Shown: positions 19,943 to 62,954, counted from the first letter of the stretch. The stretch is 62,954 bases of DNA from Thermoproteota archaeon (GCA_029887795.1 JARXPE010000004.1:1-62954); one strand, 5' to 3'. Made by a program: numbers and translations. Notes: generated by a model not told the origin, from the letters alone.

Positions 19943-22900
19943 TTAGTATTCGTCTATGGAGAGTTGTTTTGAAGTTCTCTTGGATTTTATGAGTGACCAT
20001 TCCTCCTTGGAGACTGTCCCGCCGACCTGCTCTTTTATCAGTCTGGCGGTCTCGTAGCCTATTTGTGGGACCTTTATGAGGTCTGAGGGGGACGCTGCGC
20101 GGAGATCCTCCAATGTCCTGAAACCTGCTGAGTAGAGAGCCCTCGCTCTAACTCTCCCAACGCCCCTGAGCGAGACTAATGGGAGTAGTTCCTCCTTGAC
20201 ACCGTTTTCTATGCGCAGGTAAAGGTTCCTGAGAGGTCCTATGGACTCGGTAAAACCAAAGAGTCTCGCGAGCTCGTGTGTCGAGTGAATCAACCACCTC
20301 GCTGATTCGACGAAGGAGTAAATGTCGCCAGAGCCAACATCAAACCTCTCCACGATGCTGTCCTCAGGGGACTCCTCAATCCAGTCCTTCAGCAGCAGGG
20401 CGGTCTTTACCTCCTCCAAGAGTGACTCGTATTCAGGGTCGTCCTCGTCAGAGACCTCAAAGAGGAATAGATCGGAGTTCGATTCGATGAATGAGGACAA
20501 AGGCTCGATCTCCCTCTTTCTGATATAGAGTTTGGGCATGTCAGGGGTGTGGCATATGAGTGTCAAGTAGCTTATTGGGGGCAAACCCGACCTGCGGAGC
20601 TTTAGGGCATCCCTTATTATCACGGCAGAGACCGGATCAATGTAAAGCTCCGCAACCCGCATGCCGAACCTAGTAGGGATGATTTGGTGGTTCTTATATT
20701 CTACAAGACCTTCTTTTGTGAGCATCTCGAGAGACTCAGCAACCTTCTTCTTGAAGGAATGGAGGCCGTATTGGTGGGCGAAGAGCGTCCTGCCGAAGAA
20801 CTCAAAGAGGTCTTCTTCACTATGTGCTAACCCCGTGGTAATGGTTGCGAGGGTGTGGGACCTGAGTGAGGATGCCGCCCCAAGTTTGGACCAGATCTTC
20901 TCAGGCTCGGATAGGACGTACTCCTCTAAAAGGAAGTCGCGCTCAGCCTCACTCCTCGCCAACAGTATTGCCTCGCCCTCCTTGTCGTACTTGGGCCTTC
21001 CAGCCCTTCCAGCCATCTGCTTCTCCTCGAGAATGGGGATGTTTGTTTGACCGTAGCCAGGCTCGAACCGCCTGTACTCATAGATGAGGACGCGCCTGGC
21101 GGGGAGGTTGACTCCCGCTGAGTTATGTACGGAGAAAGAACCTGTATAACTGGAATCCCCATCTACTTCCAAATTATAAACTAGCCCTTTATAGTCAGTT
21201 TGTCTAATTCTTTTTACGACCATATAGTAATTATCATCGTCTATAAAGTTTATGTTGTAATTTCTGTTGCCTTTTAGGGTGAGAGGGCGATTCAGTATCA
21301 GTCTCCCAAAACTTGCTAGTTGTTTTCCTGAGAGCTTAACTTCATAAAGATCATGCTTGCCCACAATGGCATGGCTCTTATCAGATCGTCTTGTTTTCGA
21401 AATTGATGGCATAAATCCGAGCTTTACCAAAATTGCGAATAACTGTTTAGCTAGGAGGGGTGAAATAGTTGAATAACTAACACATGGCGTCGAACGGTCA
21501 TTATCCTTATAGATCCAACCGTCCCCCATCCACATACCACGAACCAAAGGAATGAGTTTCTCCTTTGGTAAAAGGAGAAAATAATCAGGCAGGTGTTTAT
21601 TAAATGCGCTATCCCCAAAGAGCTCACGAAGTTTTGATGCCAATTGTTTGGAACAGGCCCTTATGATTCTTCTGTTCCTCTCAAAGTCTTTGATCGCGCA
21701 CCTCAACCCTAATGAGCTTAATACGTCAACAATATTTTTTGTTAAACTTTCCTCCTTTGAATTGAGGGCAAACATGATGGCGCCGTTCTTCCCGCAATAT
21801 CCCTCGGCTACAAACAGACCAAATAATTCAAGATACTTTTCTGTCATCGGGATCTTGTCGGTTTTTATCCTTGTCCAGTGTTTACCCACGATACCAAACT
21901 GATTGGCCAATAATCCGGGAGGCGGCAGGTCTATGAATTCTAGGCTAAATTCGGTCTTTATTCGCGGGAATATGACCAAATCCCCCTTCTTGAGATACCT
22001 TGCCTCTACCCATTCTGGTTTTGTGTATTCCCACCAGTGGATGTTATGAGTACGATTATGTATGGAGCGGCGGCGCCTTTTTGCACGAAGCACCTTGTGT
22101 TCAGGTGTCATCCTCATAGGGAACTGACCATAAGTGCTTATCTCCAATAATTTGCCGGCGTAGGGTCTCTGGATTTTAGCGAATACTGTTTTAAATTGAC
22201 CGTTGTGAGTCAGAACTTTATCCCCTGGACTCAGTTCTTCAATTTTTTTTGGACCCCCCTCACAAAATATCTCCTCGTCCCCGGGAAGACATAGGGTAGG
22301 GGTGGCGCATATGCACTTTATTAAAAAAGACCTGAACGCTTCCTCAATCGCCTTCCTCTGCTCGTATGTCAGACCGGCGTGGTGGAATGCAACGCCATGC
22401 GAGACAGCCCTAGAGAGCATGTCGGAGATCCTAGTGCGCTCACCCATTCTAAGTATAGCGGAGGAGAGCTCCAAGAGGTGCTTCTCTTCCTTTCTCTTTA
22501 GAAGGCGCCTGACATGTTCTGAGAGGCGCTTGGCCAGTGAAACAGCAGAGAGCCTGCTGCCGGTGAATATGAGCATCTGGCCGCCCGATTTGATCACATC
22601 CAAGGTGAGGAGGGTGACGGGATCTTTATCTGGTCCGTCGATCCGTACGACGCTACCATCCTTGAAGAAGACCGAGTCGCGGAAGCACACGCCCTCCTTT
22701 AGGGGGACAGGCCTCCAGTCGCTGGTGACAAGCAGCGCATCCAGCCACTCCGCGATCTCGGCGGCGTTCTTTATGGTCGCGCTGAGGGCGAGGAATTGTG
22801 CTTTAGGGTTGGTGATTCTGAGGGCGGTGAGCAGAGCCTCAAGCGTCGGGCCCCTTGACGGCTCACCCAAGAGGTGAACTTCGTCGGCGACGATTAAGGA

Positions 22901-23317
22901 GATCTTATCGATCCATTGTGGTCTGTGCCTTATTATCGAGTCAGCCTTTTCGTTTGTTGCGATTATTAGGTCGTATTTCGCGAGGGAGGGATCCACGGTG
23001 TCAAAGTCCCCCGTAGAGAGTGCCACTTTTATCCCTAGATCCTCAAGTAGTCTGAATTCTTCGTACTTCTCGCTGGCCAAAGCCTTTAGCGGGACTAAGT
23101 AGAGAACCTTACCCTGCCTTTCCATAATGTGCTTTATTGCGCAGAGTTCAGCAACGAGGGTTTTTCCAGAAGCGGTCGGGACTGAGAGTACCAGGTTTTT
23201 ACCTTCCAGAACCCCTGCTCTAATTGCCTCTTCTTGTGGAGGGTAGAGTTCCTGTATGCCCGTCTTCAGTAACGCTTTTTTAGCGGCATCAGGTATTGGG
23301 AGATCCTCAACCCTAAT
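19943..23317 (-). CDS. hel308: Hel308 DNA helicase precursor with intein; predicted ATT start
   Basis: IRVEDLPIPDAAKKALLKTGIQELYPPQEEAIRAGVLEGKNLVLSVPTASGKTLVAEL..DEVHLLG..LSATIKNAAEIAEWLDA; motif SAGVNLPARRVLIYEYRRF resumes after the intein. No ATG/GTG/TTG in frame before 23125. Confidence 0.93.
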   Translation of the reverse strand: MRVEDLPIPDAAKKALLKTGIQELYPPQEEAIRAGVLEGKNLVLSVPTASGKTLVAELCAIKHIMERQGKVLYLVPLKALASEKYEEFRLLEDLGIKVALSTGDFDTVDPSLAKYDLIIATNEKADSIIRHRPQWIDKISLIVADEVHLLGEPSRGPTLEALLTALRITNPKAQFLALSATIKNAAEIAEWLDALLVTSDWRPVPLKEGVCFRDSVFFKDGSVVRIDGPDKDPVTLLTLDVIKSGGQMLIFTGSRLSAVSLAKRLSEHVRRLLKRKEEKHLLELSSAILRMGERTRISDMLSRAVSHGVAFHHAGLTYEQRKAIEEAFRSFLIKCICATPTLCLPGDEEIFCEGGPKKIEELSPGDKVLTHNGQFKTVFAKIQRPYAGKLLEISTYGQFPMRMTPEHKVLRAKRRRRSIHNRTHNIHWWEYTKPEWVEARYLKKGDLVIFPRIKTEFSLEFIDLPPPGLLANQFGIVGKHWTRIKTDKIPMTEKYLELFGLFVAEGYCGKNGAIMFALNSKEESLTKNIVDVLSSLGLRCAIKDFERNRRIIRACSKQLASKLRELFGDSAFNKHLPDYFLLLPKEKLIPLVRGMWMGDGWIYKDNDRSTPCVSYSTISPLLAKQLFAILVKLGFMPSISKTRRSDKSHAIVGKHDLYEVKLSGKQLASFGRLILNRPLTLKGNRNYNINFIDDDNYYMVVKRIRQTDYKGLVYNLEVDGDSSYTGSFSVHNSAGVNLPARRVLIYEYRRFEPGYGQTNIPILEEKQMAGRAGRPKYDKEGEAILLARSEAERDFLLEEYVLSEPEKIWSKLGAASSLRSHTLATITTGLAHSEEDLFEFFGRTLFAHQYGLHSFKKKVAESLEMLTKEGLVEYKNHQIIPTRFGMRVAELYIDPVSAVIIRDALKLRRSGLPPISYLTLICHTPDMPKLYIRKREIEPLSSFIESNSDLFLFEVSDEDDPEYESLLEEVKTALLLKDWIEESPEDSIVERFDVGSGDIYSFVESARWLIHSTHELARLFGFTESIGPLRNLYLRIENGVKEELLPLVSLRGVGRVRARALYSAGFRTLEDLRAASPSDLIKVPQIGYETARLIKEQVGGTVSKEEWSLIKSKRTSKQLSIDEY
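21122..22291 (-). other. intein (390 aa) with LAGLIDADG-type homing endonuclease domain in Hel308
   Basis: TPTL|CLPGDEEIFCEGGPKKIEELSPGDKVLTHNGQ .. LFGLFVAEGY .. LVRGMWMGDGW .. VYNLEVDGDSSYTGSFSVHN|SAGVNLPARR. Confidence 0.95.
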
Positions 23318-46162: not shown

Positions 46163-47773
46163 TCATAAGTAACCCGTAATCTCCTTCTGCCCCTTCTCTG
46201 GCATTCGGGCGAGATCCTCCTCCCTTACAAATTGCGTGAATCCGTAGACTTTCTCGACCCTCCTCATCACAGAAAGCAATTTCCGCCTTTCGTGTGTCAT
46301 CAGGCTTATAAGAGCATATATACTTGCAACCTTCTTCTTACCAGAATGGCGGAGGATCCTCCCGAACCTTTGAATCCATTTCTTTGGATTGCTCGGAGGA
46401 TCCATCCAGACCTCTAGATCCGCCACAGGTATGTCCAATCCCTCTTCGCCTATACTCGTGCTGACCAAAATTCTAGCTCTCTCCTTGAATTGCAGAAGGG
46501 CCGAAGCCTGCTGCTCCATGGACATACTTCCCTTTCCAACAAGTACCGCCACATCTTCCAACCCATAAACTCCGTGGAGAATTGTCCCGAGTTGCTTTGC
46601 GCATTCGACAGATTCTACGAACACAATAGCCTTCTCGAAACTCTTTCTTTTTAAGATCTCCTTTGTAGCGGCGAACTTGTGGTTAAAAGATGATTTTAGC
46701 GCCTCTCGGTACAAATCGTATATACTCCTCCCGCCGAGTTCCTTCAAACTCTGTCTTAACTCCCTCACCCGCCATATGCCGTAGTTCAGTACGCTGCTCG
46801 CGCCGTCTTCTACGATCCTCGACCTCATTATTCTGAGGGCAAGTAAAGATACACAAAGGGGGTGCTTCTTGCAGTATCCCTTCAGGTGCTGAGATCCGTA
46901 GGCGCTTTTTACTCTTTCTCTATAATCCCTTATCACCTTAGCGAGCTGGTTATAGACCATTAGGAGCTTTTGGGGCACATACAGCCTGACGATAGTTATG
47001 GACCTCTCCGGTAGGAAGGATCTTATATCGGGATCGTTTATCGAGAAGACCTCTATTTGACCAAAAATTCTTTTCAACTCGAGAAGTCGGGAGGGAGCGT
47101 GAAGTTGCGGAGTGGCGCTAAGTGCGAGAATCTTCGCCCCACAGGCCTTAGCAGAGAGGAGTATGGAGTACCCGTCAGTCTCCCCTATGTAACCATGGCA
47201 CTCATCGGCGACAAGGATATCGAAAGGGAACTTGTAGGCAGGCATAAACTCTCTCAGAGCACTAACAGGATCCTCGGACTTCTTTGCCTGGCGGATCTCC
47301 TGTTCATGTTCAGCCAGAAAATCATTGAAGAATGTCTGTGGGGTTGTGACGATGTAACCAGCGTTCCAGACACCCAGCGATTTACGCCTCCCCGGGGGAA
47401 GAGTCCCAGATATTAGATAAGCTTCTTGAACGCCCAGGTTATTTCGTGCGAAGAGGGTTTGTTGTACGCCAAGAGGTATCGAGGGGGTTAAAAATAGGAT
47501 CCTCTTAGGATATTGAGCGGTTTCGCGTGCTAAGAAGGCGCCTGCAACGTAGGTCTTACCAAGCCCCGTGGGCAATCCTATGATTAGCGCGTCTCCCATA
47601 ACCCTATCTAGGATCCTCTGCTGGAAAGGGTATAAGGAATAGCCGATTTTCACCGCAACTCTCTGCTCTTTTTCGATTTTATAGCGGGGCGCAAGGCTTG
47701 AAGCCAGAAGTTCGGTGGAATAAAGGCTGTTGCCTAAGAACTCCAAGTATTTTCTCCAGCCGTTTCGGAGCAT
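46163..47773 (-). CDS. Hef/Mph1-like SF2 helicase (no nuclease domain)
   Basis: YPFQQRILDRVMGDALIIGLPTGLGKTYVAGAFLA, VADECHGYIG, LSATPQLH, TSIGEEGLDIPVADLEVWMDPPSNPKKWIQRFGRILRH. Confidence 0.87.
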   Translation of the reverse strand: MLRNGWRKYLEFLGNSLYSTELLASSLAPRYKIEKEQRVAVKIGYSLYPFQQRILDRVMGDALIIGLPTGLGKTYVAGAFLARETAQYPKRILFLTPSIPLGVQQTLFARNNLGVQEAYLISGTLPPGRRKSLGVWNAGYIVTTPQTFFNDFLAEHEQEIRQAKKSEDPVSALREFMPAYKFPFDILVADECHGYIGETDGYSILLSAKACGAKILALSATPQLHAPSRLLELKRIFGQIEVFSINDPDIRSFLPERSITIVRLYVPQKLLMVYNQLAKVIRDYRERVKSAYGSQHLKGYCKKHPLCVSLLALRIMRSRIVEDGASSVLNYGIWRVRELRQSLKELGGRSIYDLYREALKSSFNHKFAATKEILKRKSFEKAIVFVESVECAKQLGTILHGVYGLEDVAVLVGKGSMSMEQQASALLQFKERARILVSTSIGEEGLDIPVADLEVWMDPPSNPKKWIQRFGRILRHSGKKKVASIYALISLMTHERRKLLSVMRRVEKVYGFTQFVREEDLARMPEKGQKEITGYL

Positions 47774-48021: not shown

Positions 48022-51000
48022 TCAAAGTGCCCAAACGTCTAACTTTATTTGGTCTGCGTTGAAATCGAATGGGCTTTGCTCATTTTTGAAGGCGTAGATC
48101 CGCAGTCTCGACTCGCCTGAGCTTATGTACTTCAAGAAGTCAGAGGTTACGGTTATCGATGCTATTTCAGGAGTGTTTGCTGGGCCCGATATATAGTTTA
48201 TAGAGTAAACGGTGCTCCACGAGGAAGTAGAGTAGTCCCACAACTGAAAGGTCACATTTACTGAGGTCATATTAAATAGGGAAGTAATGTTATACGTCAT
48301 GTTGAATATTGTCCCTACAACTACATTTTGAAATACGAAATAGGCGTCTATTTGCTGCTGCGAGACCAAAGTCGGTGAGTAGAGCATGTAGTCGCTGAGC
48401 ATGTAAAACTGTCGGCCCACTTTTGTGGCACTTATAAGAATCTTCCAATTCCCAGAGGCGTCCTTAAAATCTCCAGGGCGTTCTGTTGAGCTCTGGGAGA
48501 AAGACTCAAATGAGAATGGGGAATTGGAGGATGTGTAGCTCAAGTACCCGAACCCCGAGCTCTGGTAGGATCCCGCCGTATAATTGTAAAGTTGTATGGT
48601 GACCTCGACTGAGGGGACACTGAAGGCCTGTGTCGAGTTCCAGAGCAGAGAGATCCATTCGAGGGTGTCGCTAGTGCCCTCGAACTCCACCGAGACTGAG
48701 TGTACATTCACCATTGGGATAAAGTTCAGCATGTTCAAGCCAAATTTTAATTCATTAGAACCGCAGGCTAGGCTTATGGAGATATTCCAGCTGCCCGAAG
48801 CATCCCTAAAGCTGTTTGCTCCTGAAGCTATCTCCAGTACCCTATTCTCTTCAGACAAGTTCTGGTAGGTGAAGTTGAAGTATCCCTGCTCGCCAAAGAC
48901 AGGGTACCTGCCCAGATCGAAGTTGTACACACGCACAACGCATTCTGTGGGCACCGTTGTAACGTTGGAGGTCATGTTTACCAATATCTTGGACCATTCG
49001 TCTGTGTCGGAGGTTCCGGAGAACTCCACGTTGAGAACTGCCGAATACCCGATGAATGAGATCCCCACATCGTCAATTCTTGTTGTTATGTGGGATAGGT
49101 CTGAGGGATCAGAGCAGCTGATATTGAAGAGGACCTTGAGCTGGTAATCTGTATTTTGCTGCATGGGGTAATTCACGGATATGTTAGTTCTATATAAGTA
49201 ACCAACGGAGAGCCCAACCCACCCATTTCCATAGTTGTCGTCTAGGTACAATACGGCGAGATCGTTCCCACCCGAGTCCGCCAGCACCAAGGCAACTGAG
49301 TCCAGCTTGACGTGGCTGTAGTCGCCGTAGTTATATTTTCGGGTTGGGGTGAGATTAAACTGCCAAGCAAAACTCGCCTTAGCCTCTTCCCAAGAAGAGG
49401 GCGAAGTAAAATTCGTAAAGTAAGAAACTATAAACCTATGGAATGAGTAATCAAAGTGTGCATCGTCGATATCAAAGGAGAGCGAGCCCCCACCACTGCC
49501 GTAGGGATTGCCATTCGCAGGATCGTAGTTCGGGCCTACGGTCTTCGCGAGTCCAGTCGGGAAGATCGACCCGTAGAGTATAATTTCTGTCCTATCCAGC
49601 CATACAAAGTCCACAGAAGAGAAGGAGGGCCTATAAATGGAGTTGGGTAGGGAGTACTGAGTGCCAGCGTAATAGAGATACTCGCCAGACCAAGACCCGT
49701 CGTAGTACCTGTAATAGATCCGAGATTGATCCGTATACAGGATGTAGATCCTGCCCGCGATGCAGGTTAATGTAGGATATCGCATAGATGTGGATGGAGG
49801 GCTGATGTTAATTTGAGCGTTTGCTGATGTGAAGTAACGGACTTGTGTGTAACCCGTGTTGAGCACGAAGGCAAATACCACGTAATTATTATAAGGCTCC
49901 GGTGCCGAGGAGAACTCGGCATAATTCACACCGGACGTTATTGTGGTCGAACCGCTTATCGCGCCCCAGTTCCCTGTATCGGGGTTCCACCTGTAGACGC
50001 GCCTGTAGATGATATTCTGCTGATCTGCGCGGGTGAATATAAAGTATATGTTATTGGTATTCGGCTGGAAGGTCATTGAGACCCTAGTCTCTCCAGTTGC
50101 GGTAACTTGGTATATATTGTCAGGGGTGTTGCTGCTGCCTGCATAGTTGTACCAGCTGGGGGTTAAAGAAGGATCGAGACCAGGGCGGCACCTTATGAAC
50201 ATGACTCTCAGTCTGCTTGTGCCCGTGGGAGCTTGGTAGTACCAAGAGAGGGCGGGTCGTTCGTCCTTCGAGGCATAGGTGCGGAATGAAAAGTCCCATG
50301 CCTGAGGAGTCCATGTCTGCCCACCGTTGGAACTGCTGGCGGCATTCCCATTAGGATAACCATCACTAGCGCTCCGATACCATATCCAATATGCTGACGA
50401 ACTCGAGCCCGGCGAGTAGACCACGATCCAGTAGGTCTGCGAAGTATCAAGATAAGCGGGCAGCGCGAATATGCAGTCAAACCATTGGGCAGCCGCTACG
50501 TCTATTACCCTCCCGTAGTCTATCCTGCCGGAGGCGAGTATACCAGAAGAGGACATGTCTGGGGAGGTTCCGTTGTTCTTCCTTATCTCGACATATAGAT
50601 GGTCGCCCGGCGATCCCAATCGGTACAGGTAGAGCATAATGCCGCTTAGGACATTAGAAGATGGTACAAAGGACTGGGCGTAGTAGTTGCTCCCGTAGAC
50701 AGAGATAGACGACGCAGCGGAGTAGAACTGCTGATCCTGCGACGTTAGATAGGGGTAGGTGGCAATAACGGGTCTCTGCAGGAGGATGGTGCTTGGAACC
50801 GAGTAAATTGTAATTGGAGAGGACGAGGTCCAGCCAACCCAGCCGGGTATTCTGAGGCAGAAGTTGTAATGCGGATATGTTAACCATGAAGTCATGTTGT
50901 AGGACCAGCCACCTAGGCTGCCTGCGTAGGAAGTGGTGGTGTACGCCCATTGGAATGAACCGTTAGTGCTCAGAACCACTGCGTATTGAGATCCTTTGTT

Positions 51001-52506
51001 TAAAGGCACCTCTTGAGGGAACTCCGCGTTGACCCAAGCAAAGGAACTGGTGGGCACGTTTGAGATATTCACACTTGCCACTAAACCAGATAAATTCAAG
51101 TCTGGAGTCCCGTCAATAAGGATCTTTCTAATTTCTAATTTCAGCCAAGAAGGGGATGTGCTGGCGTTTCTAAGATAAATTTCGATGGTAGGAAGTTCCG
51201 ACTTCATTGCTACAAAGTGAGATGCCCACCACATGCTTTGAGAGATCGTCTGGTAAGATGTTGAAGTCCTAGGGTTCCCTCCGTAGCTGGAGTTGTATGT
51301 GAAAAGGACATATTTTATCTGGTTAAGGGTTGCAGTATACCCTTCGTAAGTTATGTGTATGTTGTTGTTGATGTCTGAGGCTATGCTCGGGTTCCTTCCT
51401 TGCTCATACCAAGAGCCGTTGCTTATTCTTGGAAAGCCATACCAAGCAAATGAGAAACCGTCATTGACACTCATCGAGTAGGTAATAAAAACATCGTAAT
51501 TGTAAACCGCAAAAATGGTTTTGTAGGGGTCTCCAGTTCTTGCCAAAGCCCTCTGATTGGCAGAGACTAACCCCGAGGCTTTAGTAGATACCTCCGGAGG
51601 TGTGGAGGGGCGGGGCGGCGAATACTCGGAGAGGTCGCCGTACCAACCTGAGCTATTTGAAGTGAAGTTCATGTTGCTTATTGGGAAAGTGGTTTGCTGC
51701 GATATGTTGGCTGAAAATACCATCCTTCTTTCATCTTCAGCGTAAGTATCTTCTAAGGATCCGCTCTCCCAAGATCCGTTAATCATGGTATAAGATGAGG
51801 CATTATACCTCCTAAGTATCTGAGTCAATGGAGAGCTCAGGAAGTACATGGACTGGGAGTCCTGAAGTTGCAGTAGCGAAACCGAGCCGTTGACATAAGA
51901 CCCCTGATAAACCGTGAAAGAGGACGGATGATACTCGTAGCTATCGAAGGAAGGAGAGGATGCGATGGTATAGTAGGACCCGTCGACGCTCTCGACCGAA
52001 GATGGTAGTGAGCCACTTACATAACTTCCGGTAATTATGTTGCATAGAGAGGGGTAGTAGGTCAATAGTGAAGGCATCGTTGGAATAATGTTGTATTTGA
52101 CGAGTTCCAATGATGAGGCAATTGTGCCCCTTTTGGTGGCGAGCTTAAAGTTCAGTGGTGCAGAAAGGTCAAGACCTCCTCTTGGGATGGCAATTCTCAC
52201 AATTTCTCCAGCAGAGACGTTATAATAAACCGGTACGCGCATTAAAAACGTCCCTGAGGGGGCTTCCACGTATACGCTGTCTACAACAGCGTCAATCCCT
52301 CCCCTGTTAAGCGTGTATATGTAGACGTGATCGCTGTCGGCAGCAACATTAATAATCTTGAGGTCCTCAAGAAGGTCTGAGGTTTGATACGGCCCAGTAG
52401 CTGTGAGTCGGGTCACCGAGCTGTATATGACTGAGGCGGAAGCCACAACTATCATGATAAGGAGTATGGAGGCGAATATTGGCGATACTCCTTTCCTATT
52501 TGCCAT
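48022..52506 (-). CDS. giant surface protein with type IV pilin-like N-terminus (putative adhesin)
   Basis: MANRKGVSPIFASILLIMIVVASASVIY class III-type signal; about 1450 aa Ser/Thr/Tyr/Asn-rich beta ectodomain with repeats. Confidence 0.85.
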   Translation of the reverse strand: MANRKGVSPIFASILLIMIVVASASVIYSSVTRLTATGPYQTSDLLEDLKIINVAADSDHVYIYTLNRGGIDAVVDSVYVEAPSGTFLMRVPVYYNVSAGEIVRIAIPRGGLDLSAPLNFKLATKRGTIASSLELVKYNIIPTMPSLLTYYPSLCNIITGSYVSGSLPSSVESVDGSYYTIASSPSFDSYEYHPSSFTVYQGSYVNGSVSLLQLQDSQSMYFLSSPLTQILRRYNASSYTMINGSWESGSLEDTYAEDERRMVFSANISQQTTFPISNMNFTSNSSGWYGDLSEYSPPRPSTPPEVSTKASGLVSANQRALARTGDPYKTIFAVYNYDVFITYSMSVNDGFSFAWYGFPRISNGSWYEQGRNPSIASDINNNIHITYEGYTATLNQIKYVLFTYNSSYGGNPRTSTSYQTISQSMWWASHFVAMKSELPTIEIYLRNASTSPSWLKLEIRKILIDGTPDLNLSGLVASVNISNVPTSSFAWVNAEFPQEVPLNKGSQYAVVLSTNGSFQWAYTTTSYAGSLGGWSYNMTSWLTYPHYNFCLRIPGWVGWTSSSPITIYSVPSTILLQRPVIATYPYLTSQDQQFYSAASSISVYGSNYYAQSFVPSSNVLSGIMLYLYRLGSPGDHLYVEIRKNNGTSPDMSSSGILASGRIDYGRVIDVAAAQWFDCIFALPAYLDTSQTYWIVVYSPGSSSSAYWIWYRSASDGYPNGNAASSSNGGQTWTPQAWDFSFRTYASKDERPALSWYYQAPTGTSRLRVMFIRCRPGLDPSLTPSWYNYAGSSNTPDNIYQVTATGETRVSMTFQPNTNNIYFIFTRADQQNIIYRRVYRWNPDTGNWGAISGSTTITSGVNYAEFSSAPEPYNNYVVFAFVLNTGYTQVRYFTSANAQINISPPSTSMRYPTLTCIAGRIYILYTDQSRIYYRYYDGSWSGEYLYYAGTQYSLPNSIYRPSFSSVDFVWLDRTEIILYGSIFPTGLAKTVGPNYDPANGNPYGSGGGSLSFDIDDAHFDYSFHRFIVSYFTNFTSPSSWEEAKASFAWQFNLTPTRKYNYGDYSHVKLDSVALVLADSGGNDLAVLYLDDNYGNGWVGLSVGYLYRTNISVNYPMQQNTDYQLKVLFNISCSDPSDLSHITTRIDDVGISFIGYSAVLNVEFSGTSDTDEWSKILVNMTSNVTTVPTECVVRVYNFDLGRYPVFGEQGYFNFTYQNLSEENRVLEIASGANSFRDASGSWNISISLACGSNELKFGLNMLNFIPMVNVHSVSVEFEGTSDTLEWISLLWNSTQAFSVPSVEVTIQLYNYTAGSYQSSGFGYLSYTSSNSPFSFESFSQSSTERPGDFKDASGNWKILISATKVGRQFYMLSDYMLYSPTLVSQQQIDAYFVFQNVVVGTIFNMTYNITSLFNMTSVNVTFQLWDYSTSSWSTVYSINYISGPANTPEIASITVTSDFLKYISSGESRLRIYAFKNEQSPFDFNADQIKLDVWAL

Positions 52507-52850: not shown

Positions 52851-53282
52851 ATGTCTAGAGGTATAAGCGAGATCGTTGCAACATTAATGATTATAACAAT
52901 AGTCTCCGGGATAAGCCTGAGCATCTATGTTTACAGTCTAGGTTACTTTACTGGAACAGCCTCGGCTTTCGGGGAGATCGTGAAGATGAACACTAACACT
53001 TTGAGAGAGAGATTTGCTGTGGTGGATGTGATAATAAGGAGCTCTACTGAGGGTACAGAGGTCTCGGCTGCGGTATACAACTACGGGAAGACAGAAATCA
53101 CCCTTAGAACGATGTTTTTAAACGGCACTGAGCTGAGCGTAGGGGGCCCGAAAGAAATCCTTCCTTCAGAGGTCGCATGGTTCAACGGGAGCATGTCAAT
53201 CGCATTAGTTAACGGGTCCATTTGTTCCTTGAGAGTCGTTAGTGAGTTGGGGAACTTCTATGAGACTACGGTGGTCTATTAA
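52851..53282 (+). CDS. type IV pilin-like protein
   Basis: MSRGISEIVATLMIITIVSGISLSIYVYSLGYF. Confidence 0.8.
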   Translation: MSRGISEIVATLMIITIVSGISLSIYVYSLGYFTGTASAFGEIVKMNTNTLRERFAVVDVIIRSSTEGTEVSAAVYNYGKTEITLRTMFLNGTELSVGGPKEILPSEVAWFNGSMSIALVNGSICSLRVVSELGNFYETTVVY

Positions 53283-54114
53283 GACTAGGGATAAAGCGGT
53301 TGGCACGATTATAGGCGCAACGATCTTCCTAGGAATTTTCTTAGTATCTGTGTCCCTCTTGTTGTTTTGGATGCAAAGCTACGCGAACTACGCGGGAGCG
53401 GCGTTAAAAGAGACGGGATTTGAAGTGGAAAGGGCGAGGGAAGATCTGGTATTGACATTTTTAAATTCCACGGCGAAGCTTAAAGTGATCGCAAGAAACC
53501 CAACGCCGTACACAATTATAATAACCCAAGTATGGTCAAACCACTCGTTTCTGACCGGGGAGTGGGTCGTGCCCGCAAAGGGGAGTGCCGAGATCAATAC
53601 TACGCTTGATTATGCAGGGATGGCTCTATGCAAGGTCGTAACAAGCAGGGGTAACATATTCTCAGGCCCCCAGACCGTTGGTGAGGACTTGGAGGAGTAT
53701 ATGATAGAGGAGGGGAGGTGGTATGTTCAATGGTACAACCTCTCCGCCAGACGTGTCTTTGATATGAAACTGGGAGAGAGCTACTGGCAGAGCCTGAGCA
53801 TATCGTTCCAGTGGGGGTCTGCACAAAATGATCCTATATTCGGAGGGTACACGAAGGTCGGCTTTAATGCGACAACGCGCGTGGTGGCATTTGGAACTAA
53901 GATGTACATAAACTGGTATGTGAATGAGGATGCGAGAGTGATAATAAAGGAATTGAACATAGACTCTGGCTGGCAGACTGGAGCAGGGTATGTTGAGGCT
54001 AACGTTTCGCCAGGAGGTGCCTACACAGTCACAGTACTCTACAGCAGGTGGACGGGCGCGCCCTTCATGACTCTGAATGTGGTGAATGCCGACTTTATAA
54101 GTTCGGTCAGGTAA
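53260..54114 (+). CDS. pilin-like/archaellar-type secreted protein
   Basis: MRLRWSIKTRDKAVGTIIGATIFLGIFLVSVSLLLFWMQSYANY then beta-rich domain; overlaps upstream pilin gene. Confidence 0.7.
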   Translation: MRLRWSIKTRDKAVGTIIGATIFLGIFLVSVSLLLFWMQSYANYAGAALKETGFEVERAREDLVLTFLNSTAKLKVIARNPTPYTIIITQVWSNHSFLTGEWVVPAKGSAEINTTLDYAGMALCKVVTSRGNIFSGPQTVGEDLEEYMIEEGRWYVQWYNLSARRVFDMKLGESYWQSLSISFQWGSAQNDPIFGGYTKVGFNATTRVVAFGTKMYINWYVNEDARVIIKELNIDSGWQTGAGYVEANVSPGGAYTVTVLYSRWTGAPFMTLNVVNADFISSVR

Positions 54115-54182: not shown

Positions 54183-54680
54183 TTATTTCCTCACCGCAAA
54201 CTCAAGGGTCGTTCCATCCTCGCAAACTATGCGAATGGTTTGGGTCCTGGCAGCAGGGTTCGAAGACTCTATATATAAGGTTCCAACTGAGGCGACATCC
54301 AAGGAAGTAGTGGGTGTACCAGCAACAAAGAAAGCCCATTCCAGAGTGGTATTAACAGCCAGTTGGGTCCAGATTTGAGATTCGCTATTAGCCGTACTGT
54401 TATATGATATTTTTACTCCATCGACGTACACAGAATTTAATACGACAGCCTTTCCACCGGTGTTGCGTATGTATGCAGTAATTGAGCTGCTGGTTGTGCC
54501 GTTGACCGAGTAGGAGTCGTAGGTAAGTTGACCTTGAACGTTAGTGGAGGTCTGAGTGCCTGTGCCTACGAACCCCATGACAAAGGTGTAGGTCACAACT
54601 ACTGCTGCTACCGCGATGACTATGAGAAGCAAAGTCGCAATTATCGGTGAGACTCCTCTTCTATCTAAATTTATATTCAT
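54183..54680 (-). CDS. type IV pilin (candidate major subunit)
   Basis: MNINLDRRGVSPIIATLLLIVIAVAAVVVTYTFVMGFVGT. Confidence 0.9.
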   Translation of the reverse strand: MNINLDRRGVSPIIATLLLIVIAVAAVVVTYTFVMGFVGTGTQTSTNVQGQLTYDSYSVNGTTSSSITAYIRNTGGKAVVLNSVYVDGVKISYNSTANSESQIWTQLAVNTTLEWAFFVAGTPTTSLDVASVGTLYIESSNPAARTQTIRIVCEDGTTLEFAVRK

Positions 54681-54889: not shown

Positions 54890-56380
54890 GTGATGCAAAT
54901 GGAAGACATAGAAGTTCAGTTCAAGACTACATATCCTATCGAGGAGCCCTATGCTTATGCGGCAATCTTAGAGGATCCCCAGACTAAAGAGATCACATAT
55001 AAAGTGATAGAACCCACGCTTACGCCACAGGACAGATCCTTATTAGAGAAGATAAAGAAGATATTTCTTGACGAGCTTGACGTGGATGTTTCAGAACTGA
55101 ATAAAGAGAAAGCTCGCAAGATCATAGAAGAAAGAGTAAGAAAAATTATAAAGAACTATGAAATGAACCTAGACGAGGGAATGGTAAGAAAATTTCTCTA
55201 TTTTATAAATAGGGATTTCCTTGGATTCGAGAAGATCGATCCTTTGATGAAGGATCACTATATTGAAGATATATCATGTGATGGTGTAGGCGTGCCCATA
55301 TACGTCTGGCATCGGGAGTACGAATCGATCAAGACCAATCTCGTTTATGATAATGAGGAGGAGCTAAACAGGTTCGTTGTGAGGTTGGCATACCTTTGTG
55401 GAAAACACCTGTCTATAGCGGATCCGATTTTAGACGGCTCGCTCCCAGACGGTAGCAGGGTTAATGCCACATACAGCTCAGAGATCTCAAGGCGCGGGAC
55501 CACATTCACCATTAGGAGGTTCAGGGCAGATCCTCTTACGATTGCAGACCTAATCAATTTGGGCACGATCTCTTTGGATATAGCCGCATATCTTTGGTTC
55601 GTCATTGAGAATAAGAGTTCCATATTAATAGCCGGAGAGATCGCCTCAGGAAAGACTACTCTCCTCAACTGCACCTCGATGTTCATAAGGCCAGATATGA
55701 AGATAGTTTCCATAGAAGAGACGCCCGAGCTAAACCTCCCTCACATAAACTGGATACCGATGAACACCAGGACAGGCTTCGGTAGGAAGGGAAGCGATGT
55801 CACTCTATTCGATCTTTTAAAGAACGCTCTCAGGCAGAGACCTGATTACATAATCGTGGGCGAAGTGCGAGGGCAGGAGGCATTCACACTCTTCCAAGCA
55901 TTATCCACGGGTCACGGTGTTCAGGCGACAATCCACGCCGACACGCCGGAAAAGGTAGTAAGCAGGCTCGAGTCGGAGCCCATGAATGTGCCAAGACCAA
56001 TGATAGGACTGCTAGACATCATAATAGTACAGGGGAGGGTAAGGATTAATGAGAAACCTGCCAGAAGGACGTTATATGTAACAGAGGTCAAGGACTACGA
56101 TAGGGAGAACGATGAGATTCTGCTCAATGAGATCTCCAGATGGGAGCCTGCCAAGGATGAACATATCAAAACAGGAGAGAGTGTGCTTTTAAAGAAGATA
56201 GCTGAGAGAAAAGGATTTTCAATGGAAGAGGTCATGTCGGAGATAAACAAAAGAAAGGTCGTGCTGAACTGGATGGTCAAAAAGGGAATGAGGAGGTACA
56301 TGGAAATCGGGACCATGCTTCGGGAGTACTATGCGGATAAGGAGAGGACTTTCAAGAGGGCGCTGGTGGAGAGTTTATGA
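54890..56380 (+). CDS. type II/IV secretion (pilus assembly) ATPase
   Basis: FTIRRFRADPLTIADLINLGT, IAGEIASGKTTLLNCTSMFI, VGEVRGQEAFTLFQALSTGHGVQATIHAD. Confidence 0.96.
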   Translation: MMQMEDIEVQFKTTYPIEEPYAYAAILEDPQTKEITYKVIEPTLTPQDRSLLEKIKKIFLDELDVDVSELNKEKARKIIEERVRKIIKNYEMNLDEGMVRKFLYFINRDFLGFEKIDPLMKDHYIEDISCDGVGVPIYVWHREYESIKTNLVYDNEEELNRFVVRLAYLCGKHLSIADPILDGSLPDGSRVNATYSSEISRRGTTFTIRRFRADPLTIADLINLGTISLDIAAYLWFVIENKSSILIAGEIASGKTTLLNCTSMFIRPDMKIVSIEETPELNLPHINWIPMNTRTGFGRKGSDVTLFDLLKNALRQRPDYIIVGEVRGQEAFTLFQALSTGHGVQATIHADTPEKVVSRLESEPMNVPRPMIGLLDIIIVQGRVRINEKPARRTLYVTEVKDYDRENDEILLNEISRWEPAKDEHIKTGESVLLKKIAERKGFSMEEVMSEINKRKVVLNWMVKKGMRRYMEIGTMLREYYADKERTFKRALVESL

Positions 56381-57264
56381 AGAGGAGGCGCCTCTCTTTT
56401 CCTGATATATACTATATATCATATAGACTCCTTGGAAGATGGGCAGAGCTCGTTCTGCCGTACTTTGAGGATCTTGAGAAGGATATAAAGCGCGCGGGTA
56501 TGAAGGTTTCGTTGAATAGATACGTCAGCAATATGTTGTTGGTCACATTCATCGCGTTCATATTGGGTTTTTTGTTACCACTGCCTATCCTGATCCCTAG
56601 GACGGCGGTCTTCTATGCTTTGACGGCGAGTCTAGGAATTGGGCTTTTGGCATCAGGGATATCATTCTGGATAATGTATGTAATCCCAAATGTACGTGCC
56701 AGTACCAGGAAAGATAGGATAGGGAGGGCTTTAAGCTTCGTAGTGAATTACATGGCAATATTGTCAACGGCGGGCGTAGTGCCAGAGAGGATCTTTAAGA
56801 GCATGTCCAGTTCCGATATAGACCCCATTTTAAGAGAAGAGGCCTCAGAGGTGGTGAGGGGGTTCGAGATCTTGGGGGAGGACTTCTATTCGGCGCTTCG
56901 GAGGAGATGTGATGAGACTTCTTCGAAGCAGTTCTCTGAGCTCCTAAGGGGATTATCAATGGTCAGTTTGGCTGGGGGGGACTTGACTAGGTACCTAAGG
57001 ACACAGGCAAAGTATTTTATGAGGATGAGGAGAGTGGCTCTAAGAAAGGGGCTGGACCAGCTTGGAGTCTTGGCAGAAGTCTATGTGACTGCAGGGATAG
57101 TCATGCCGATGGTGATAATCATAATGCTCTCTACCATGTCACTCATTGGAGGAGGGCTTATGAACGTTATTCCTTGGCTTTACTTGGTAACCTTCTTGAT
57201 TATACCAGTTGTATCCATTTTACTCATTATACTTATAGACACCATGGTGCCAAAGGAGGAGTGA
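56377..57264 (+). CDS. TadC/GspF-like pilus assembly membrane protein 1
   Basis: Multi-TM; RIGRALSFVVNYMAILSTAGVVPERIFKSMSSSDIDPILREEASEVVRGFEILGEDFYSALRRR. Confidence 0.88.
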   Translation: MKRRRLSFPDIYYISYRLLGRWAELVLPYFEDLEKDIKRAGMKVSLNRYVSNMLLVTFIAFILGFLLPLPILIPRTAVFYALTASLGIGLLASGISFWIMYVIPNVRASTRKDRIGRALSFVVNYMAILSTAGVVPERIFKSMSSSDIDPILREEASEVVRGFEILGEDFYSALRRRCDETSSKQFSELLRGLSMVSLAGGDLTRYLRTQAKYFMRMRRVALRKGLDQLGVLAEVYVTAGIVMPMVIIIMLSTMSLIGGGLMNVIPWLYLVTFLIIPVVSILLIILIDTMVPKEE

Positions 57265-57266
57265 TT

Positions 57267-58094
57267 ATGCCCTACGTCAAAAAGAACGAGAGATATATCT
57301 TATATGCGATATCCTGTGGCTCAGGGATTATTCTAGGGATCTTAGGCTACTACATAGGAACAAACAACGTCAGGCTCGGGGATTATATAATTGTAATAGC
57401 GGTCATGCTAACGTTATTCCCGCCAGGCGCTCTCGACTACTTTGAGTTCAGATGGAAAAAATCCATCGAGAACAGGATGCCAGACATTCTCTACGACATT
57501 GCCGAAGGGCAGTTGACTGGCATGACTTTTATAAGAGCACTACAGACTGCAGCTACAAAGGATTACAGTGCAGCATCTAGAGAGCTCAGGAGGGTGCTTG
57601 CGCAGATCAGACTTGGAATGAGTCTGGAAGAAGCATTCCAGTCTTTTGCAAAAAGGGTTGACTCTGAGATTGTGAAAAAAGTAGGAATTGTAATATCCGA
57701 GACCAGCAAGTTCGGGGGAGACGTATCAAAAATAATAAGGAGCCTGGCAGATTATGTAAAGGACATAATACTTATTAATGAAGAGAGAAGGGCTACTATG
57801 CGAATGTATATAGGGGTCACATACATAGCTTTCGGCGTTTTACTTTTTACGATAATGATACTTTTGAATAACTTCTTTGTGCCGATAATTCAGTTAAGCG
57901 GAACTGTGATCTTTGTATCACAAGCGCCCTACGAAGAGTACAGAAGAATTTTCTTTTATTTATGTGTTGTACAGGCCATCTCTTCAGGACTTGTTGCGGG
58001 AAAGATGGGGGAGGGGACGATGTCTGCCGGGTTGAAACATGTAGTTATTATGCTCTTCTTGACACTATTACTCTTCTCAATCTTCATAATGTGA
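57267..58094 (+). CDS. TadC/GspF-like pilus assembly membrane protein 2
   Basis: RMPDILYDIAEGQLTGMTFIRALQTAATKDYSAASRELRRVLAQIRLGMSLEEAFQSFAKR. Confidence 0.87.
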   Translation: MPYVKKNERYILYAISCGSGIILGILGYYIGTNNVRLGDYIIVIAVMLTLFPPGALDYFEFRWKKSIENRMPDILYDIAEGQLTGMTFIRALQTAATKDYSAASRELRRVLAQIRLGMSLEEAFQSFAKRVDSEIVKKVGIVISETSKFGGDVSKIIRSLADYVKDIILINEERRATMRMYIGVTYIAFGVLLFTIMILLNNFFVPIIQLSGTVIFVSQAPYEEYRRIFFYLCVVQAISSGLVAGKMGEGTMSAGLKHVVIMLFLTLLLFSIFIM

Positions 58095-58207: not shown

Positions 58208-59218
58208 TTACGCCAAGACTTTGAGGCTTGTGGAAATAATGGACTTTAGAGGCGCCATTATGTCTGATACGGAAGTCCCTTCCACTATTTTTATTCCGTA
58301 AAGCGGGGCTAGTTTCTTTGCACCTTCCTGGATGCCCGGTATACAGACCAATATTGTGTTTGTTGGGTTGGTGTCCAATACTTTGACGAACAAGTTCATA
58401 ACAACAGATTCGTTAATTGGTTCTTTGGATACTGCGACATCCACGGCAACGGTGTTTCCAGACTTATCGACGCCCACTACATCGAAGGGGTGAGAAACGC
58501 CAGATTTCCCCAGAAGGGTTCCTGGTGAGCTCACGACATATCCCTCCTCTCTAAGTGTGCTTACTATAGGGTTGATGGCGAGGTGTCGCCGGGAGAATTC
58601 TTCTATGGCAGCTTTGTTTATTACAATGCGCCCAACGGAGGAAATGATTAAGCCATGCGCAGTTACCTCCTTCTTGCATCCCCTGCAGAGGTAGGTTATC
58701 TTCGGCAGGTCCATCTGCCGATAGCATGTGAGGCACCTGTACCAGACGCCAACAGTCCTATAGTCTCTGCCCTCTAGGGACAATTTAGATCCGCAGCTCG
58801 GACATATCAGCGTCCCTGTAGGGTCTTTAAACTTGGAGATAGGACCGATCACGCCATCCCTTATGTGCTCCAATAGCAACTCTTTGTAAAGTTGTGTTGA
58901 GTTACAGAAGTGGCAGTGGAAATAGACGCGGATTTGCTCAGACCCGCAATACGGGCACCTAAGTACTTGATCATGGTATTCTCTAGTGCCTAGACCTAGG
59001 GAGATGATCTTGTTTACAACCTCGATGGACTCAGTAGGAGAGACTTTGCAGGAGTTTATTATATCAGGGTAGACATATCCAAAACAAGCGTCAAATTCTG
59101 GTAGGAGCACATCTTTATTCCCCCTAACGAGATGTTCGAAAAGGCAGACTAGCCTCTGATCGCTTGTAATCGCCGAGTAATAAGAGCTTGGAGGGAGGGG
59201 CGACGACAATGACTCCAC
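58208..59218 (-). CDS. multi-zinc-ribbon protein (TackOD1-like) with restriction-endonuclease-fold-like C-terminus
   Basis: CPYCGSEQ..CHFC, CPSCGSK..CLTC, CRGC; C-terminus HPFDVVGVDKSGNTVAVDVAVSKEPINESVVMNLFVKVLDTNPTNTILVCIPGIQEGAKKLAPLYGIKIVEG. Confidence 0.65.
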   Translation of the reverse strand: MESLSSPLPPSSYYSAITSDQRLVCLFEHLVRGNKDVLLPEFDACFGYVYPDIINSCKVSPTESIEVVNKIISLGLGTREYHDQVLRCPYCGSEQIRVYFHCHFCNSTQLYKELLLEHIRDGVIGPISKFKDPTGTLICPSCGSKLSLEGRDYRTVGVWYRCLTCYRQMDLPKITYLCRGCKKEVTAHGLIISSVGRIVINKAAIEEFSRRHLAINPIVSTLREEGYVVSSPGTLLGKSGVSHPFDVVGVDKSGNTVAVDVAVSKEPINESVVMNLFVKVLDTNPTNTILVCIPGIQEGAKKLAPLYGIKIVEGTSVSDIMAPLKSIISTSLKVLA

Positions 59219-60265: not shown

Positions 60266-62954
60266 TTACGGTTGTACCCTCCTTAGTATTAATATGATGG
60301 AGCCCAATGCAACGATTACCAAAATGACTATTATGTACAAGGTGTAGTCAACTGGAAGCTTGATTGTGAAGGACCAAGTGGCGGTTGCAGTATTTCCTGA
60401 GGTATCTTTTACAGTTAGAGAGACGATATGACTACCTTCTTCAAGCGTCGTGAAATAGGTTATGCTGACTGGTGTGACTATTGAGTATGCGGTCACATCC
60501 CTTCCATCCAACTTTAATGTTATTGATGTAGTATTTATTCCGACGTCATCTGAATAGGATGCATTAATTGTTATTGATTTAATGGAGAGGATTGTTCCAT
60601 TGAGAGGCGAGATGATGAATATCTTAGGAGGCGTAATGTCGGGAAGCTTGATTGTGAAGGACCAGGTGGCGGTTGCAGTATTTCCTGAGGTATCTTTTAC
60701 AGTTAGAGAGACGATATGACTACCAACATCAAATGTTGCTGCATATTCCACATAGGAGTTGTTCAGCTTAGTTGGAATTACTATACTGTCATCAATTGAG
60801 AGGATTATTGAAGATACATCGATTCCCACATCATCTGAGTAATGGGCATTAATTGCCACTGCTGTATCATATATGAGAGCTCCATTGGATGGATATACAG
60901 AATATATGGTCGGTGGTTTTATGTCGGGAAGCTTGATTGTGAAGGACCAGGTGGCGGTTGCAGTATTTCCTGAGGTATCCTTCACCTCAAAGTAGACTGA
61001 ATGGACTCCTTCGGAGATATCTGCGATTGGTGTATATATCACCATGGAGGAGTTTAGGATAGCCAAAGAGGTTACATCAACTCCATCAAGCAATAATCTA
61101 ATGCTAAATAGGGCTATTCCCACATCGTCCGAGTATTTCACTGTTATGAGGGGTCTCTTCTCGGCTACGGTCCCTTCTGGGGAGAACGAGGCTATTGTGG
61201 GAGGAGTGGTGTCTGGTGCGAGAGTTTTTGCACCTACGGCAAAGTATGAGAAGCCGGGCGAGACTGCCTCGAAGTAGTAGTAATCATCGTCCTGGGAGAC
61301 TAAGGATGTGGGGAGTCCGGTCCATGTGGTGTCAAGGCGGTAGAGCTGGACGGAGGAAGGATCGAGCCCCAGAGAGGAGAGAGTTGCCTTCGAGACCCTG
61401 AACTTGATGGTGGCTTGGGTGACGGCACCGGAGGGGACGTTGACCTCGATCTTTATGAAAGATGTGGGAGTTACTCCCGCCGGGAGCGGTACGGAAGTGG
61501 GGTTCTCAGAGTACTCCTCGGTGGTGACTTGGAGGGACGGGAATGACTCGTTCGTAACGAGTTCTATTGTCCTCACTGAAGCTGCGGGTGCCTGGGTGCC
61601 TACGTCCACAGTGGTGGGGGTGTTAGCGGCTATGGACAGGATTATGGAAGCGGTAGTGCCGGATACAGGTGTCGGTGCTGGAGGCGGTGGTGGAGGTGGT
61701 GGTGGAGGTGCGGGTATTGAGACTGTAAAGGACCAAGTCTTTGTCGCTTGGTTACCGACTGTGTCTTTCACGGAGACGTAGACTGTGTGGGAGCCCTCGC
61801 TGAGCCCTGCCGGGGTGTAAGTGAACCCGGTCTGAGTTACGGTGGAACTGGAAGTCACGTCAACACCATCCACCTTTACGATAACCGAGGCTGCGTCAAC
61901 GGCAACATTGTCGGAGAAGGAGGCGCTTATGGTGGGCGTAGTTGTAGTTACGGTGGAGCCGTCGGCGGGTGAGAGTGAGGATATGGTTGGTGGGACTGTA
62001 TCGGGTATGGCGACTAGGAATGTCCACTGAGTCGTCGCGCGGTTATTCAATGTGTCGTTCACGGACAGGTAGACTGTGTAGTAGCTCCCGTTAGTCAGGG
62101 CAGGCGGCGTATAAGTTATTCCAGATGCGGTGACGGTAGACGCCGAAGTGACGTCGCTACCATTGATGAGGATCCTGACTGACGATACAGATATGCCGTT
62201 TGGATCGGAGTAGCTGGCGGATATAGTGGGGGTAAGGGTCGTGATTGTGCTACCAGGCGTGGGTGTCAGGGAGTGTATGAGGGGCACACCCACATCAACA
62301 CCGAATGTCCAATTGGACCATGCCCTGTTGCCAGCAACGTCGCCGACCCAGAGGGCTATGCTGTGGGATCCGTCTGAGAGGTTGGCGGCGGGTGTGTAGG
62401 AGATCCCGGTCGGACCAACCGTTGCGAGTCCGGTGACGTCCACACCGTCCACGTAGAGTCTTATGGAGGGTACAGATATTCCAGAGACGGTGTCGGTGTA
62501 GTTGCAAGATATGGTTGGGCGGTTGTTTCCTGTAACGGTGTTGTTGGCTGGAGAAAGCGATGAAGTTGTGGGCGGGGTTGTGTCTACGAAGAAGATAATT
62601 GCGAAGGTGGCTGTGTTGCCCTGCGAGTCTGGTACGGTCACAGTGGCATTGTGGGGGCCGTCGGGGAGGGTTATAGTGTAGTTAATAGTCCATCCAGTCG
62701 CAGAGCCTCCCGAGACTGACGGAACCTTTGTGATGCCATCAACCTTGAAGACCACGCCAGCGGTGTTCACGGATGATACAGTGTCGTTCACCAAGAGTGT
62801 TATGTTGACTGAGTGAGTCGAGAGGTAGGAATTGTTAGCGGGCGTGTAGGAGATCAAGTATGGTGGCATCGAGTCTACGGTGAAGTACCATGTAGTGGAG
62901 TTCATGTTGTTGGACGTGTCGTTCACGGAGACGTATACGGTATGAGAGCCTTGT
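60266..62954 (-). CDS. Ig-like-repeat surface protein with PGF-pre-PGF-like domain and C-terminal TM anchor, partial (5' end beyond window)
   Basis: Many ~95-aa DTTPPTISSLSPA..TWSFTV-type repeats, Pro-rich linker APPPPPPPPPPAP, C-terminal VDYTLYIIVILVIVALGSIILILRRVQP. Confidence 0.88.
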   Translation of the reverse strand, partial: QGSHTVYVSVNDTSNNMNSTTWYFTVDSMPPYLISYTPANNSYLSTHSVNITLLVNDTVSSVNTAGVVFKVDGITKVPSVSGGSATGWTINYTITLPDGPHNATVTVPDSQGNTATFAIIFFVDTTPPTTSSLSPANNTVTGNNRPTISCNYTDTVSGISVPSIRLYVDGVDVTGLATVGPTGISYTPAANLSDGSHSIALWVGDVAGNRAWSNWTFGVDVGVPLIHSLTPTPGSTITTLTPTISASYSDPNGISVSSVRILINGSDVTSASTVTASGITYTPPALTNGSYYTVYLSVNDTLNNRATTQWTFLVAIPDTVPPTISSLSPADGSTVTTTTPTISASFSDNVAVDAASVIVKVDGVDVTSSSTVTQTGFTYTPAGLSEGSHTVYVSVKDTVGNQATKTWSFTVSIPAPPPPPPPPPPAPTPVSGTTASIILSIAANTPTTVDVGTQAPAASVRTIELVTNESFPSLQVTTEEYSENPTSVPLPAGVTPTSFIKIEVNVPSGAVTQATIKFRVSKATLSSLGLDPSSVQLYRLDTTWTGLPTSLVSQDDDYYYFEAVSPGFSYFAVGAKTLAPDTTPPTIASFSPEGTVAEKRPLITVKYSDDVGIALFSIRLLLDGVDVTSLAILNSSMVIYTPIADISEGVHSVYFEVKDTSGNTATATWSFTIKLPDIKPPTIYSVYPSNGALIYDTAVAINAHYSDDVGIDVSSIILSIDDSIVIPTKLNNSYVEYAATFDVGSHIVSLTVKDTSGNTATATWSFTIKLPDITPPKIFIISPLNGTILSIKSITINASYSDDVGINTTSITLKLDGRDVTAYSIVTPVSITYFTTLEEGSHIVSLTVKDTSGNTATATWSFTIKLPVDYTLYIIVILVIVALGSIILILRRVQP
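60354..60985. repeat. near-identical in-gene DNA repeats (three copies, period 288/285 bp)
   Basis: ggaagcttgattgtgaaggaccaggtggcggttgcagtatttcctgaggtatc starting at 60354, 60642 and 60927. Confidence 0.95.

Follow-up and report, generated by a model that had tools for sequence, protein, structure and literature searches.

A candidate giant modular pilin with an exchangeable head in Methanomethylicales archaea

Here, we describe a giant pilin-like protein of 1494 amino acids encoded on a 62,954-nucleotide stretch of DNA from a Thermoproteota archaeon (GCA_029887795.1 JARXPE010000004.1:1-62954). This stretch, hereafter the window, is contig C33 in full, from a draft genome of 1.25 Mb (G000) that belongs to the Candidatus Methanomethylicales, a methanogen lineage within the Thermoproteota. 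We find that the protein is quite probably a minor type IV pilin of modular build and part of an archaeal pilus, with an exchangeable adhesive head and a probable location at the pilus tip. At the level of sequence, we detect a class III signal, a pilin module, linkage to pilus genes and an anchor that relatives share while their ectodomains differ. The features strongly support its membership among the pilins.

The open reading frame (ORF) occupies exactly the positions given by an earlier, sequence-only reading of the window, and lies on the minus strand, a detail absent from that reading; the plus-strand frame over the same positions is riddled with stops. The gene is single-copy in its own genome, where the sole further match is the nearby PilA. 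Because colinear orthologs occur in related genera (63-64% in G001 and 58% in G009), together with fragments in G008, G012, and G013, we regard the ORF as neither a product of chance nor assembly noise. Between G000 and G001, the giant is conserved as well as its partner proteins (PilA, 59%; the two minor pilins, 62% and 65%; the ATPase, 80%). The G013 copy (L027:16978-19998) is split over two contig ends, has one in-frame TAA, and may be a pseudogene or an error of a metagenome-assembled genome (MAG).

The pilin module and its gene neighbourhood

The giant begins with a predicted pilin module (residue r ends at position 52506-3r+1):

48022..52506, minus strand: giant modular pilin, 1494 amino acids (ORF)
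52414..52506, minus strand: class III (prepilin) signal MANRKG and hydrophobic N-terminal helix, residues 1-31 (TIGR02537, structure model, hydropathy)
52102..52413, minus strand: pilin beta domain, residues 32-135 (profile and Foldseek matches to 8fk7)

TIGR02537, the NCBI archaellin/type IV pilin N-terminal model, recognizes the giant at 32.4 bits (cut-off, 20), so the class III signal that the sequence-only reading proposed to look for was found. Pfam Pilin_N (PF07790) stays below its cut-off for the giant itself (E 0.015) and reaches E 3e-5 in the best ortholog. The N-terminal helix, placed at residues 9-29 by AlphaFold, is the top Kyte-Doolittle window of the protein, which has no second transmembrane-like window. 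Furthermore, a profile built from the orthologs aligns residues 2-131 with 8fk7, the solved pilus subunit of Pyrobaculum calidifontis (E 9.7e-9), and the same subunit is the top Foldseek match of the AlphaFold model (E 6.7e-6; TM 0.62 by target length). Because 8fk7 is matched by both profile and fold, there is a strong case that residues 1-135 represent a complete archaeal type IV pilin, and not a signal peptide alone. The proposed kinship with the N-terminus of PilA is also evident (38% across residues 3-82, E 1.4e-6), as is the roughly tenfold difference in size (1494 versus 165 amino acids).

A set of pilus genes adjoins the giant:

52851..53282, plus strand: minor pilin A, with a GISEIVAT N-terminus (conserved alignment A3; accompanies the system across the family)
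53242..54114, plus strand: minor pilin B, with a pilin-like N-terminus (alignment A4)
54183..54680, minus strand: probable major pilin PilA (PF07790 over cut-off; TIGR02537)
54890..56380, plus strand: pilus assembly ATPase (T2SSE PF00437, PilB3_C)
56377..57264, plus strand: TadC/T2SSF platform protein 1 (PF00482)
57261..58094, plus strand: TadC/T2SSF platform protein 2 (PF00482)
58208..59218, minus strand: TackOD1 protein, a conserved neighbour of type IV pilus genes (PF18551; in the same place in L036, L039, L040, L042, L073, L081, and L082)

The order giant, minor pilin A, minor pilin B, PilA, ATPase, TadC, TadC is the same in G001. Judged by its profile matches, the machinery is an archaeal type IV pilus: the pilins of the locus match the archaeal Pilin_N and TIGR02537 models, and the ATPase scores best with the archaellum FlaI model (432 bits; cut-off, 550). 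The sequence-only reading had called the pilus Tad-like. TadC/T2SSF proteins are indeed present, but the name is just loosely right because the ATPase is closest to FlaI and reaches 183 bits with the TadA family (cut-off, 373), as with FlaI a score below cut-off; the combination of TadA-type ATPase and Flp pilin was not recovered.

Two recurrent neighbours accompany these loci. The TackOD1 protein adjoins TadC genes in type IV pilus loci of several Thermoproteota families (also in L093), and is a candidate pilus regulator. A DEAD/Helicase_C helicase (46163-47773, minus strand; also in L025, L077, and L078) recurs beside the pilus locus of the family at varying positions. Among the pilins themselves, minor pilin A is distinguished in nearly all relatives by an acidic residue immediately behind its cleavage site (G-[IV]-S-E), where PilA and the giant carry S-P/S-V. 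This difference could affect the order of subunits.

The ectodomain and its replacement in relatives

The remaining ~1360 amino acids form a beta-rich ectodomain that is rich in S, T, Y, and N, with 31 N-glycosylation sequons and an isoelectric point of 4.9. A search of the giant for CxxCH (heme) and RGD motifs returned none. The predicted modules are as follows:

51712..52059, minus strand: three GS-x3-GS repeats, residues 150-265 (hhalign; tandem copies in L033, of another family)
51256..51555, minus strand: beta segment, possible propeller blades, residues 318-417 (conserved in orthologs; low-confidence model)
50782..51255, minus strand: jelly-roll 1, residues 418-575 (hhalign against jelly-roll 2; predicted local distance difference test (pLDDT) 66-87)
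50227..50739, minus strand: jelly-roll 2, residues 590-760 (hhalign against jelly-roll 1; AlphaFold model)
49537..50226, minus strand: beta segment, possible further propeller blades, residues 761-990 (conserved in orthologs)
49042..49506, minus strand: beta sandwich, residues 1001-1155 (structure model)
48025..49041, minus strand: three C-terminal beta modules, M1, M2, and M3, residues 1156-1494 (hhalign)

Two kinds of repeat in this list had been proposed from the sequence alone, and both were substantiated. The three GS repeats, directly C-terminal to the pilin module, are mutually alignable (pairwise hhalign of ortholog alignments, probability 58-84%), and their hidden Markov model also matches the large pilin L033 (independent E-values 1e-6 and 1e-3). 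The two jelly rolls are homologous to each other (hhalign probability 96%, P 5e-9). AlphaFold models both as beta sandwiches (pLDDT of about 66-90), and few other beta parts of the model are confident. Foldseek relates them weakly to CBM22, CBM11, and Cwp84 lectin-like folds (E 3e-3 to 2e-2). The C-terminal modules had been missed. M1 (1156-1265) and M2 (1266-1390) are repeats (hhalign, 99%), M2 and M3 align at 92%, and modules of this type also occur in short relatives of the giant and in L033 and L034. The C-terminal sandwiches and modules reach pLDDT values of up to 93. A profile search of the PDB returned no sequence relative of the C-terminal half, and its many Foldseek matches, such as reelin, Vip3, and GH101, are sandwiches of several domains at low TM, which indicates beta sandwiches only.

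Pfam and NCBIfam scans of the ectodomain returned no enzyme, no named lectin or carbohydrate-binding module family and no recognised head domain, and a named lectin or enzyme identity was therefore rejected. A scan for the DUF2341/PilY1 propeller was negative at E 0.1 for the whole protein and at E 5 for alignments. A beta-propeller composed of residues 318-417 and 761-990 with the jelly rolls inserted stays a guess from sequence texture, as the AlphaFold model is too uncertain there. An Asp-box-like SVDGGLTF motif lies within the 318-417 segment of one ortholog only, where BNR matches at E 0.86.

We find that pilins with the same anchor, here termed slot pilins, can carry different heads, a pattern that the sequence-only reading had not picked up. 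A slot pilin lies beside pilin genes in G012, G004, G006, G010, G014, and G018, the last five with ectodomains unlike that of the giant. Three kinds of ectodomain occur: the giant's own type; 8-16 SdrD_B repeats (1205-2504 amino acids); and short forms (429-492 amino acids). The SdrD_B forms measure 2101 (G018), 2504 (G006), and 1205 (G004) amino acids, with repeat counts of 16, 16, and 8 across the three; every genome compared is a draft or MAG, and assembly may affect the exact lengths of such repeat-rich forms. The short forms of G014 (459 amino acids) and G010 (462 amino acids) keep the M-type modules. A GATase (guaA-type) gene flanks the slot pilin in G004, G006, G014, and G018 (PF00117 confirmed for G004 and G014). 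Within one genus, the same guaA-flanked locus holds either a 459-/462-residue or a 1205-/2101-residue version.

In a tree of 14 large slot pilins, 10 PilA, and 13 minor pilin A sequences, the pilin modules of the slot pilins form one clade (support 98/93), separate from both other groups. The SdrD_B and short forms of one genus are sisters in this tree (91/84), as are their ATPases (100/99). Because the pilin-module and ATPase trees agree, the data fit vertical descent of anchor and machinery while the head was replaced. We thus tentatively propose that the type IV pili of Methanomethylicales possess a dedicated "tool-holder" pilin, an orthologous anchor that keeps its locus while unrelated giant heads are swapped on it, even among members of one genus.

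A putative adhesive head and the competing explanations

The following mechanism would account for these features. The genome encodes a single class III peptidase, the prepilin peptidase Peptidase_A24 (PF01478; G000:C22:6439-6777), which would cleave the signal peptide of the giant. Residues from about 7 to 135, comprising the N-terminal helix and the beta domain, would then pack into the filament as in any pilin, and the ectodomain would project outward and bind a target, which might be a partner cell, a polymer or a surface. Because of its bulk, the giant would most likely cap the filament, jointly with minor pilins A and B. In this scheme, the fixed anchor would be the pilin part and the exchangeable head the ectodomain. 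Processing, incorporation into the filament and ligand binding or adhesion by the ectodomain are what we infer from this architecture.

In bacteria, modular pilins whose heads are vWA or lectin modules act as adhesins, probably at the tip (PMC8179133, PMC9934059). The giant conforms to the definition of a modular pilin, having a complete N-terminal pilin module joined to extra modules (PMC8179133). Like Streptococcus sanguinis PilB and PilC, it combines a small pilin module with a large non-pilin module, is encoded among other pilins, belongs to a set with widely variable heads, and is likely located at the tip (PMC8179133, PMC9934059). Unlike them, it has an archaeal signal and pilin fold, and a head of ~1360 amino acids versus one domain. 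Adhesion is proven for PilB and PilC and putative for the giant. The survey of modular pilins used the bacterial IPR012902 signal as query, reported the trait for bacteria and had an extreme case of 860 residues (PMC8179133), compared to 1494-2504 for the giants described here.

Other tip-type proteins offer further parallels. PilY1/PilC of bacterial type IVa pili and the archaeal DUF2341 "PilY-like" proteins, which have been proposed by analogy as tip adhesins of archaeal type IV pili, are likewise very large, with a fixed part and a variable adhesive part (PMC4858521); PilY1 is a non-pilin, whereas the giant has its own pilin module. A 2016 census found in Thermoproteales type IV pilus loci a "large signal peptide containing protein, minor pilin or adhesin", and left its role open (PMC4858521). 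The giant is similarly a large secreted protein in an archaeal pilus locus, but the Thermoproteales proteins were not defined as pilins with an exchangeable head, and Verstraetearchaeota are not mentioned in the census. Sulfolobus AapA, from the Aap pili, is another low-abundance archaeal pilin suspected of tip adhesion; it is encoded in the two-pilin aap cluster as a minor pilin of ordinary build, and the available portion of that source describes no giant ectodomain (PMC11178785). The tip is left open in archaeal type IV pilus reviews and structures (PMC11178785, PMC11178815). Bacteria already provide examples of modular pilins as a kind; what is new here is a variant, the giant archaeal form in which an orthologous anchor bears exchangeable heads.

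Several observations weigh against the interpretation of the giant as a tip adhesin. Linkage to pilus genes, which the sequence-only reading had expected, holds in most relatives, but the G009 giant lies outside the type IV pilus locus, about 20 kb away, and contig evidence places no giant in the G013 pilus locus, its copy being broken over contig ends. The gene is absent from G007 (97% complete). The model of the giant has a mean pLDDT of 44.5 (68 for the C-terminal part), with low confidence for most of the ectodomain, and the carbohydrate-binding fold matches are weak. The tip position, furthermore, is deduced from bulk and analogy. The sequence-only reading had itself named three outcomes that would speak against it, namely no class III signal, no conserved linkage and an unrelated enzymatic fold, and none of these was found.

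In archaea, surface proteins that are not pilins can carry class III signals too, one example being the sugar-binding "bindosome" proteins of Sulfolobus. Thus, the giant might be a cell-anchored surface protein that uses such a signal and resides in the membrane or surface layer (S-layer), outside any filament. This would suit its separation from the pilus locus in G009, and the Bas ATPase model does give 244 bits on the locus ATPase (cut-off, 1000). Sulfolobus AapA, too, is missing from the fibre, and its site of action may be the membrane (PMC11178785, PMC11178815). We nevertheless consider this explanation unlikely, since the giant has an entire pilin beta domain besides the signal helix, yields no solute-binding domain in Pfam and NCBIfam scans, and adjoins other pilins in most relatives.

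The stalk-like SdrD_B forms and the fivefold variation in length at one locus could instead indicate a role without a specific ligand, namely as a filament spacer or structural decoration that would serve length, S-layer crossing or stiffness. Two jelly rolls and several distinct modules, colinear in orthologs, exceed the needs of a stalk and make this very improbable. Display of a surface enzyme, such as a propeller glycosidase, on a pilin anchor is suggested by the possible propeller-like segments and the Asp-box-like motif of one ortholog, but is at least as improbable, given zero enzyme families at a useful E-value, a weak BNR match in a single member and non-enzymatic repeats on other slot pilins.

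If the giant is indeed a modular pilin with an exchangeable adhesive head, the target specificity of a pilus tip would evolve separately from the pilus, and a change of head on a single subunit may be how archaea alter what their pili contact. With lengths of up to 2504 amino acids, the slot pilins would then include the largest modular pilins on record, as well as the first candidate tip adhesin to be defined for a pilus of archaea. Naming a candidate whose anchor and set of partner pilins are conserved, and whose head varies naturally, opens the question to testing. Methanomethylicales are H2-dependent methylotrophic methanogens, for which pilus-borne adhesins may matter in contact with partners.

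Large pilins in other Thermoproteota and further genes of the window

A profile of 14 anchors was searched against 250 Thermoproteota genomes. Among the matches listed, large open frames occur outside the family of the window too, up to about 1100 amino acids, and frames of at least 1200 amino acids occur in that family only. Examples include L090 (1092 amino acids, with Laminin_G_3), L093 (953 amino acids, with CARDB, beside ATPase, TadC, and PilA genes), and L095 (434 amino acids, with LTD). The Laminin_G_3 (lectin-like), CARDB, and LTD pilins suggest that head grafting onto pilins, described in bacteria, is used by archaea too. Within family f12, L090, L091, L092, and L096 are pilin-module proteins of about 900-1100 amino acids with LamG-like segments; open frames of similar size occur in several genomes, and an ATPase gene lies near the L096 pilin.

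Near the pilus locus, 60266-62926 (minus strand) encodes a protein with immunoglobulin-like (Big_13) repeats, a PGF-pre-PGF domain and a C-terminal transmembrane segment, its 5' end probably lost at the contig end. G001 has a 1460-residue relative in the corresponding place (L025:4503-8885). A promoter and terminator scan of the window stayed at chance level, with bacterial models that are not apt for archaea. Elsewhere in the window, 10282-11508 (minus strand) holds a TnpB-like gene (Cas12f1-like TNB, RuvC) with no obvious TnpA partner among the ORFs listed, and 19943-23125 (minus strand) holds a Hel308/Ski2-type helicase gene split by an intein, which contains parts of a LAGLIDADG homing endonuclease.

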